The position numbers and the translations under genes were made by a program. A stretch of DNA of 64,000 bases from an uncultured Neokomagataea sp. (GTDB lineage: Bacteria > Pseudomonadota > Alphaproteobacteria > Acetobacterales > Acetobacteraceae): contig NZ_CAMKWA010000003.1 of NCBI RefSeq assembly GCF_946476835.1, positions 124,001 through 188,000 on the forward strand, written 5' to 3'. Of this stretch, positions 2 to 25,988 are shown piece after piece. The notes under the pieces were generated by a model that searched no databases, was not told where the DNA came from, and worked only from the letters and a program-made list of their open reading frames with translations. Positions within the stretch are counted from its first letter, which is position 1, and every line of letters begins with the position of its first letter.

Positions 2-565
2 GGGCGATATGATGCTCAGTCCCGTATGATTCTGACGGCGGGCCGCCTGACGGAGCAAAAGGGGTATGACCTTCTTTTGCAGGCATGGGCGCAGTTGGTT
101 GAGCGTGATGAAGCGGCCGAATGGTCTTTGTTGATCCGAGGGGATGGGCCGGACAAAGCAGCACTGATGGAGCAAATGGAGGGCCTGCCGCGTGTGGTGT
201 TGGCGCCCGCGACGGAAGGGATCGCGCAGGATTATGCGCGGGCTGCCTTGTATGTGTGCTCGTCACGCTATGAAGGGCTGCCGATGGTTTTGTTGGAGGC
301 TGCTGCAGCTGGGGTGCCGATTGTGTCGTTTGATTGTGTGACCGGGCCGGCGGAAATTGTTGAGCAGGATGTGTCGGGGCTTTTGGTGCCGCCGGAGGAT
401 GTTCCTGCGCTTGTGGAGAGTTTGGCCGCGTTGATGCGGGATGGGGAACGGCGTTCAGAAATGGCTGTGGCGGTAAAGCAGCGTGCGCTGGCTTTTCAAG
501 AAGGGCCGATTATGGCCCGATGGGGGGTATTATTGGGTGCCGAATGGGGTAGGGAGCGCAGCTAG
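2..565 (+). CDS. Glycosyltransferase family 4, C-terminal part (cut by window start)
   Basis: The frame is open to the left edge, so only the C-terminal part of about 187 residues is visible. It shows the GT-B donor-nucleotide half: a strand reading ILTAGRLTEQKGYDLLLQAW, then RGDGPDKAAL, and the SSRYEGLPMVLLEAAAAGVP block whose conserved Glu contacts the sugar nucleotide in GT4 enzymes. It should move a sugar from a nucleotide donor onto a glycan or lipid at the cytoplasmic membrane face. The acceptor cannot be told. The gene ends just before a strong hairpin shared with the convergent DUF2147 gene. Confidence 0.85.
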   Translation, partial: GRYDAQSRMILTAGRLTEQKGYDLLLQAWAQLVERDEAAEWSLLIRGDGPDKAALMEQMEGLPRVVLAPATEGIAQDYARAALYVCSSRYEGLPMVLLEAAAAGVPIVSFDCVTGPAEIVEQDVSGLLVPPEDVPALVESLAALMRDGERRSEMAVAVKQRALAFQEGPIMARWGVLLGAEWGRERS

Positions 566-595
566 GCTGACCGTGGTGTGAGGAGGGATAGAGTG

Positions 596-627
596 AGGCT
601 ATGCCAGTTTGTTGTGTGGCATAGCCT
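596..627. terminator. Bidirectional hairpin between convergent genes
   Basis: Perfect 11-bp inverted repeat (AGGCTATGCCA / TGGCATAGCCT) with a 10-nt loop, between the glycosyltransferase and the convergent DUF2147 gene. There is no long U-run, so terminator function is inferred from strength and position. Confidence 0.6.
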
Positions 628-646
628 TAGAGGTGTGTGTGGGTGT

Positions 647-1111
647 TTATGGTGCGGAAACGCGTTTCCAGATTTGGCTACGACCGAACATAGGCATGCC
701 GACATAACCACGGACTTCGAGCATTTTGTCGTGAAAAAGCTGCATATGGCAATGATAGCTCTGGCCGTTGGCGGGGTCGATGATGGAACCGCCTTCCCAT
801 GTGTTTTTAACAGCTTTCATATCGGACAAAATAGGAAGGCCGACGAAAGGGGCATTATGCAGGGTGCCTTTGCAGTTGCCACATGTATCACCTCCGGCAG
901 GGACGAGTTTTTTAACGATTTTCCCTGAGAGGCTGCCGTCAGCATTTTTATAGATTTGGATGATGGCTTTAGGAGTATTGGTATGCTCATCAACAGACTG
1001 CCAAAACCCCACGGGGGAGCCCTCATCGGCAGCATATGCTGGTGCCAGGAAAACAGTGGCGCAGCAGAGAGCGAGCGCAGCGCATGAATGGGTGAAGACG
1101 CGCTTCAGCAT
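647..1111 (-). CDS. Secreted DUF2147 family protein
   Basis: A 154-residue protein with an N-terminal signal peptide (hydrophobic core about residues 9-24, cut after APAYA). The mature part follows the DUF2147 pattern: a start like VGFWQSVDEHT, an IQIYKNADGSLSGKIVK segment, a Cys pair in GDTCGNCKG and a GGSIIDPANGQSY block. DUF2147 proteins are small periplasmic beta-rich proteins of unknown role, one to a few per genome in many proteobacteria. The gene stands alone, convergent with the glycosyltransferase and divergent from tsaE. No function is assigned beyond the family. Confidence 0.8.
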   Translation of the reverse strand: MLKRVFTHSCAALALCCATVFLAPAYAADEGSPVGFWQSVDEHTNTPKAIIQIYKNADGSLSGKIVKKLVPAGGDTCGNCKGTLHNAPFVGLPILSDMKAVKNTWEGGSIIDPANGQSYHCHMQLFHDKMLEVRGYVGMPMFGRSQIWKRVSAP

Positions 1112-11346: not shown

Positions 11347-11656
11347 TGGTGTCCACGGAAGGATTCGAACCTTCGGCCCCAGGATTCATACCACTTCGGT
11401 TTTCACCGCCAAGCACGATCAGAGTGCTTGTTCGTGGTCTGGACTGTCTCTTCACCATGGCTTGAATGCCAAGGTGTTGCCCGTACAGTCTCTACACCTT
11501 CTTCCTTAAAGGGAAGCTTGGCTCGGGATTGGCACGACCTTTGGAAAAAGGCCAGAGCGTTCCCCGAATTTGAGCAAATCCACCATGTAGTTTCCAAGCA
11601 TGGCGCCCAATTTAATACTAGGAATCCTGTGCTCTATCCTACTGAGCTACGCAGAC
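11347..11656 (-). tRNA. tRNA-Arg(CCU), split by a group I intron
   Basis: Read on the minus strand, the two exons give a 77-nt tRNA with encoded CCA. The acceptor GTCTGCG (11656-11650) pairs with CGTGGAC (11357-11351), with two wobble pairs. The D arm is GCTC/GAGC. The anticodon stem is CAGGA/TCCTG around loop TTCCTAA, giving anticodon CCU at 11622-11620. The T arm is GAAGG-TTCGAAT-CCTTC and the discriminator is A. The 5' exon ends at U36 and the 3' exon starts at A37 (11386). The tRNA reads AGG arginine codons. A promoter lies just upstream at 11667-11695. Confidence 0.93.
11387..11619 (-). other. Group I self-splicing intron in tRNA-Arg(CCU)
   Basis: 233 nt inserted after U36 of the anticodon loop; the last intron base is G. 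P1 can form as CCUAGU with AUUGGG, placing the splice-site U36 opposite G as group I introns require. The core elements are recognisable: Q as AATCCCGAGCCAAGC, a P8-like hairpin CTTCC-CTTTAA-GGAAG, R as GTGTAGAGACTGTACGGGC, S as AAGAGACAGTCC (R AGACT pairs with S AGTC to form P7), and a 7-bp P9 hairpin CAAGCAC/GTGCTTG. The R and S boxes closely resemble those of cyanobacterial tRNA-Leu introns (subgroup IC3). No homing endonuclease frame is present. Introns in tRNA-Arg(CCU) are known from Agrobacterium and some other proteobacteria. Confidence 0.92.
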
Positions 11657-25912: not shown

Positions 25913-25988
25913 GGGGCCATAGCTCAGCTGGGAGAGCGCCTGGATGGCATTCAGGAGGTCGTCGGTTCGATCCCGTCTGGCTCCACCA
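25913..25988 (+). tRNA. tRNA-Ala(GGC)
   Basis: 76 nt cloverleaf with acceptor GGGGCCA/TGGCTCC, D arm GCTC/GAGC, anticodon stem CCTGG/TCAGG (one wobble) with anticodon GGC at 25946-25948, T arm CGGTTCGATCCCG and encoded CCA. No duplicated 3' end was noticed nearby, so no integration is indicated. Confidence 0.97.

Follow-up and report, generated by a model that had tools for sequence, protein, structure and literature searches.

A group I intron in the only detected tRNA-Arg(CCU) gene of an uncultured Neokomagataea species

Is the sequence that splits a tRNA-Arg(CCU) gene in an uncultured Neokomagataea species a ribozyme that could remove itself, or has the gene been lost to an insertion? We examined the gene within a window of 64,000 nucleotides (the whole stretch of DNA that was analysed; contig NZ_CAMKWA010000003.1, positions 124,001 to 188,000), to which all coordinates of the gene refer. 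With introns allowed, ARAGORN reports a tRNA-Arg(cct) of 77 nt with an intron of 233 nt at c[11347,11656], exactly the coordinates, strand, host gene and intron length given by the first-pass annotation. On the minus strand, the 5′ exon (11620..11656, 37 nt) ends in ...TTCCT, the last base being U36; the group I intron (11387..11619, 233 nt), delimited by a full-length RF00028 match, the ARAGORN boundaries and covariation, begins with A and ends with G; and the 3′ exon (11347..11386, 40 nt) has its CCA encoded. ARAGORN also places the insertion directly 3′ of the anticodon, as had been proposed. The two tRNA halves do pair, although the ARAGORN drawing has two G-U pairs in the acceptor stem. 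We conclude that the insert is almost certainly a small intron of the group I ribozyme class that encodes no homing endonuclease and lies between U36 and base 37 of the sole tRNA-Arg(CCU) gene detected, and that it would be spliced out to give a 77-nt tRNA reading AGG.

Such a gene is easily overlooked. Searching Rfam with an E-value threshold matched the intron to RF00028 at 49.6 bits (E 1.1e-11) over model positions 1-253 of 253, which lies 0.4 bits below the gathering cut-off of 50 bits; the covariance-model search proposed as a check therefore does return the family, though just short of the curated cut-off. Because 49.6 bits is less than 50, Rfam at gathering scores misses the intron and the split gene and returns only a tRNA-Ala at 25913 from the whole window. 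ARAGORN without introns misses the split gene too, and its sole tRNA in the window is the same tRNA-Ala. The expectation that ordinary tRNA searches would miss the gene was thus borne out by both of these searches, and the genome would therefore seem to be without tRNA-Arg(CCU); for this window, the split gene matters mostly for annotation. An 81-aa frame in the list of open reading frames spans most of the intron on the opposite strand. It matched 0 Pfam families at E 0.01, and we rejected an endonuclease encoded by the intron, in agreement with the first reading of the sequence.

The ends of the intron carry the marks by which splice sites would be chosen. A putative internal guide sequence, GGG (11606..11608, minus strand), pairs with the CCU of the 5′ exon such that U36 faces G in P1, and the terminal intron base within the ARAGORN boundaries is G, both as originally described. 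Among related introns from Acetobacteraceae, the guide facing CCU is present near the 5′ end, as [TC]TGGGC, in 91/91 fully read Arg(CCU) introns, a set whose defining pattern demanded CCT before the intron and G at its end; when only the introns bounded by ARAGORN alone are considered, a U precedes the intron and a G ends it in 84/84. Comparison supports the predicted splice-site geometry as well as the predicted fold. In the pathway that we propose, the tRNA precursor would be transcribed and its intron would fold; a guanosine held at P7 would attack just past U36, where P1 has its U-G pair; once released, the 5′ exon would in turn attack beyond the G that ends the intron; and the ligated exons would form the 77-nt tRNA reading AGG. 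We infer transcription, GTP-initiated self-splicing, charging and use of the tRNA from the behaviour of the group I family.

The P3-P7 pseudoknot and the P4-P6 and P8 domains can all be drawn on the window sequence. Folded as a single sequence, the intron is moderately unusual (z -2.51, with 1/100 shuffles equally stable). We drew a 69-pair group I structure on the window copy and tested it on an alignment of 52 Arg(CCU) introns, chosen from the 91 fully read to be <85% identical to one another and each extended by five exon bases on either side. Paired cells amounted to 92.6% of 3477, compared with 80.0% in 500 shuffles and 31.9-42.2% with partners slid, the slide control favouring the tested structure because this was drawn on one of the aligned sequences. 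Two-sided changes occurred in 517 cells (170.2, sd 11.1, in shuffles; 63-167 slid) and at 43/69 pairs (34.4 in shuffles; 19-28 slid), counts that are not probabilities, because related sequences can exceed shuffles. The comparative test is strong evidence for the fold; taken by itself, minimum free energy counts as weak evidence.

Individual helices differ in how they bear on this result (all on the minus strand). P2, a hairpin with a GAAA-type loop (11581..11605), has 98.9% of cells paired and two-sided changes at 5/7 pairs; P3 (11477..11577; strands 11572-11577 and 11477-11482), which encloses P4-P6 and the 5′ strand of P7, is 100% paired with two-sided changes at 3/6 pairs. P9 (11390..11438; 11434-11438 with 11390-11394) encloses P9a and P9b, the latter with a GAAA loop (11397-11408); these three have 94.6%, 93.0% and 99.5% of cells paired, respectively, each with two-sided changes. 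In P7 (11442..11490; strands 11486-11490 and 11442-11446), which is pseudoknotted with P3, 5/5 pairs are invariant and paired in 52/52 sequences. The helices of the catalytic core, P4, P6 and P7, are all 100% paired, and because they are invariant in the 52 sequences, covariation neither supports nor contradicts them. The poorest fit is found in P5 (71.8% paired) and in P8 (11453-11476, between the P7 strands; 75.0% paired, its outer part weakest), the outer parts of both varying between sequences. The group I identity, and the P8 and P9 hairpins, that had been read from the window are upheld by this structure, its test on 52 introns and, for the identity, the RF00028 match. The marks of subgroup IC3 are a short P1, a P5 that lacks a large extension, and GAAA loops on P2 and P9; read from its sequence alone, the window copy has the GAAA loops.

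The position of the insert would also suit a different kind of intron, since the protein-spliced tRNA introns of archaea and eukaryotes usually lie near base 37 too (PMC4090602). That the insert is instead removed by proteins, or is an unrelated insertion and not a ribozyme, is nonetheless scarcely credible given the RF00028 match and the two-sided changes in well over half of the pairs. No tRNA splicing endonuclease of the archaeal or eukaryotic kind is known from bacteria.

A second, intact tRNA-Arg(CCU) gene, which the first-pass annotation had named as grounds for regarding this copy as dead, was not found in the assembly, either by RF00005 with ARAGORN or by pattern searches. The RF00005 search of the genome gave 34 matches, and ARAGORN, run on all 34 loci, named at least one tRNA in 30/34, with Arg anticodons UCU, ACG and CCG; CCU was not found among these tRNAs. 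Because this list is incomplete (four of the 34 loci gave no tRNA, and Gln, Asp and Ile, for example, are not named), the absence of a second CCU copy rests mainly on the pattern searches. A 26-base pattern representing an uninterrupted CCU gene, allowing <=3 mismatches, matched nowhere in this genome except in the region of the split gene's own 3′ exon, and a 25-base pattern used family-wide gave 0 matches there. Two loci returned by a looser CCU pattern were rejected; they lie at the positions of two tRNA-Glu genes. The statement that no functional tRNA exists without splicing thus holds for the CCU isoacceptor but goes no further, since tRNA-Arg(UCU) is present. This tRNA could read AGG by wobble. 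If it does, the split gene may be a dead copy whose intron no longer splices, a reading that the rarity of AGG (24/1142 Arg codons, counted over 32 long ORFs from the window) would suit. Yet the window copy has its core helices, U-G pair, terminal G and both exons in place; the fold is kept in the 52 compared introns, although identity to the window copy falls as low as 52% in the set; and the intact CCU site present in 111/397 Acetobacteraceae genomes suggests that the tRNA is wanted. We therefore consider a dead copy very improbable, and continue with a splicing intron as the preferred reading.

The split gene has a GcrA-like gene on one side and a helix-turn-helix gene on the other. The best segment of a neighbouring Suv3-like helicase is 98% identical to the helicases of Neokomagataea thailandica and N. 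anthophila, which places the window in a Neokomagataea-like acetic acid bacterium and bears out the earlier placement of the DNA in that group of bacteria. When this helicase was used as bait, the split tRNA was present in the fetched flanks of 2/43 named loci, both from Neokomagataea; synteny says little here, because the neighbourhood is not common to the other loci. Upstream of the gene is a promoter-like TTGACA/AAAAAT pair (11733-11705), a consensus match only, of a kind found 5 times in the stretch against 1.5 expected, and inside the intron is a terminator-like site (11567-11552), again a consensus match only and at chance level (1 found against 0.8 expected).

How widespread is the split gene? 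We drew 397 Acetobacteraceae genomes out of a larger group; RF00028 matched at 120 places in 117/397 genomes, with 24 genomes above the cut-off. At 91/120 places, Arg(CCU) exon ends lie on both sides, 223-314 nt apart; at one more (L006), there is an Arg(CCU) 5′ exon only and the intron runs off the contig, giving 92/397 genomes with a split tRNA-Arg(CCU). Boundaries were set by matching both conserved exon ends. ARAGORN labels 84 of the 91 as Arg(cct), one of which, L098 in genome G149, has its intron at the same site as the window copy, and seven as His-atg (L074, L105, L113, L120, L121, L146 and L148); false frames (His-ATG, Thr, Asn, Pro) arise in automatic splice-site calls because splice sites can slide. 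The longest Arg(CCU) intron of the set, L064, measures 314 nt (457-770, minus strand); it has an extended P1 loop and a 104-residue stop-free stretch. An intact CCU site was identified by pattern in the 111/397 genomes mentioned above, and the two forms are mutually exclusive, occurring together in 0/397. The 194/397 genomes with neither form may reflect divergence, incompleteness or the stricter filters of large searches. Within the genus of the window, the split form is present in 14/14 genomes of the draw.

To place these introns relative to one another, we used a tree of 97 introns and 212 columns, comprising the 52/91 Arg(CCU) introns that are <85% identical, 27 other introns of the family, 17/26 loci of a class-level sample and one plasmid intron; L135 is in the tree with its host unassigned, and nine class loci that had no assigned host were left out (L207, L209, L211, L215, L218, L224, L225, L228 and L230). 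All 52 Arg(CCU) introns fall into one group (support 0.996), which also takes in a single Leu(UAA) intron on a long branch; the largest pure Arg(CCU) grouping has 39 members, and none holds all 52 alone. A single entry into the family, followed by inheritance and loss, would suit this tree. Transfer remains compatible with it as well, because all of its Arg(CCU) introns are from Acetobacteraceae. In the class-level sample, RF00028 matched in 31/385 genomes, 4 of these Acetobacteraceae, and Arg(CCU) exon ends were found at 0 of the 26 places read (of 30) outside the family. Overall, the intron in Acetobacteraceae looks old and mostly inherited, with losses. With its split and intact alleles and several host tRNAs, the family-wide sample offers natural replicates for the spread and persistence of endonuclease-free introns.

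At 26/120 places, the RF00028 match lies in one of seven tRNA genes besides Arg(CCU): Leu(UAA) (11), Leu(CAA) (4), Arg(UCU) (4), Thr(GGU) (3), Asn(GUU) (2), Thr(UGU) (1) and Lys(UUU) (1) (L002, L003, L023, L024, L025, L068, L085, L086, L088, L095, L097, L102, L107, L108, L122, L129, L131, L133, L136, L137, L140, L141, L143, L145, L147 and L150). Six of these hosts were assigned by hand (L085, L122, L129, L131, L133 and L147), four of them after the script gave no answer, and 2/120 places have no assigned host (L135, and L028, located at the end of a contig, where no tRNA 5′ exon was seen). At most of the 26 places, the guide varies with the host exon, being mostly CUU/GAG in Leu(UAA) and GGU/GCC in the Thr(GGU) introns of the family, and these other hosts support the idea of a predicted guide that follows the exon. 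The script found no guide for Asn (2 loci) or for the Thr locus L231, the Asn guide being visible by eye only. Three of the Leu(CAA) genes (L097, L136 and L141), interrupted between positions 34 and 35, have C34 in place of U as the exon base next to the intron, which would turn the usual U-G pair into C-G; possibly these genes once had the anticodon UAA and retained the intron when it changed. Elsewhere, group I introns lie in tRNA-Lys (UUU or CUU) genes of other alphaproteobacterial families (L217, L219, L229 and L233).

Mobile elements contain related sequences. Part of the window query matched 1271/72,556 plasmid records, and the two enterobacterial plasmids examined have an intron-split tRNA (L201 2824-3122; L202 2925-3223), Leu(UAA) by hand and tRNA-Stop by the ARAGORN label, with aac(3)-IId and a gene for an AAA ATPase close by. 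The L201 intron scores 36.8 bits against RF00028. Among 190 alphaproteobacterial genomes, the best match to the enterobacterial plasmid stretch is 86% over 299/299 bases, hinting at an alphaproteobacterial source for it. On a Bradyrhizobium plasmid (L203 2001-2162), an intron core is followed by what appears by eye to be the 3′ half of a tRNA-Leu; ARAGORN found no whole tRNA there. No phage match was obtained at E 1e-5, and we rejected a phage link for the intron on the basis of 0 matches in 50,697 phage records. Tentatively, and with somewhat more doubt than confidence, we suggest that one endonuclease-free group I lineage of Acetobacteraceae and other alphaproteobacteria may have spread through eight or more tRNA genes (Arg-CCU, Arg-UCU, Leu-UAA, Leu-CAA, Thr-GGU, Thr-UGU, Asn-GUU and Lys), its three-base guide tracking the final bases of the exon, which is what reverse splicing would lead one to expect, and that the Arg(CCU) copy entered the family once and was then inherited and lost. 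This wider host range is more interesting than the window copy itself.

The first-pass annotation supposed that such an intron may be little described in acetic acid bacteria, but the split gene is already in print: footnote c to Table 1 of PMC4596401 marks a tRNA-Arg as interrupted by a group I-like sequence for Asaia bogorensis, Acetobacter pasteurianus, Gluconobacter oxydans, Komagataeibacter medellinensis and Gluconacetobacter diazotrophicus; Granulibacter is without the mark. In the text of that paper Neokomagataea appears once, in a list of genera, and it is absent from the table rows consulted; full-text literature, in which most subscription journals are outside coverage, yielded no other paper on introns that names Neokomagataea. 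The structure of the Azoarcus tRNA-Ile intron is cited in PMC3984707. Insertion in tRNA-Arg(CCU) directly after the anticodon, as in the window copy, is what defines the alphaproteobacterial tRNA-Arg(CCU) intron family. The window intron is a real, ordinary and well-preserved member of this known family, and close relatives have already been noted with it. Group IC3 introns of Azoarcus tRNA-Ile and cyanobacterial tRNA-Leu have a short guide, an insertion in the anticodon loop and GAAA loops on P2 and P9. The window copy shares the short guide, anticodon-loop insertion and GAAA loops with them, whereas they differ in interrupting other tRNAs and, in tRNA-Leu, in lying between positions 34 and 35. 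Nearer to it are the five acetic acid bacteria of PMC4596401, which have the same tRNA amino acid and belong to the same bacterial family; this likeness is by description, the passage giving the split gene without sequence, structure, anticodon or position. The alphaproteobacterial tRNA-Arg(CCU) family was discovered in Agrobacterium (Paquin et al., 1999, as cited in PMC7717549), and BbgpI of Bartonella bacilliformis, an intron of tRNA-Arg(CCU), is described there as splicing in vivo and self-splicing in vitro. Likened by description, BbgpI and the window copy interrupt the same tRNA and have CCT on both sides of the intron (PMC7717549).
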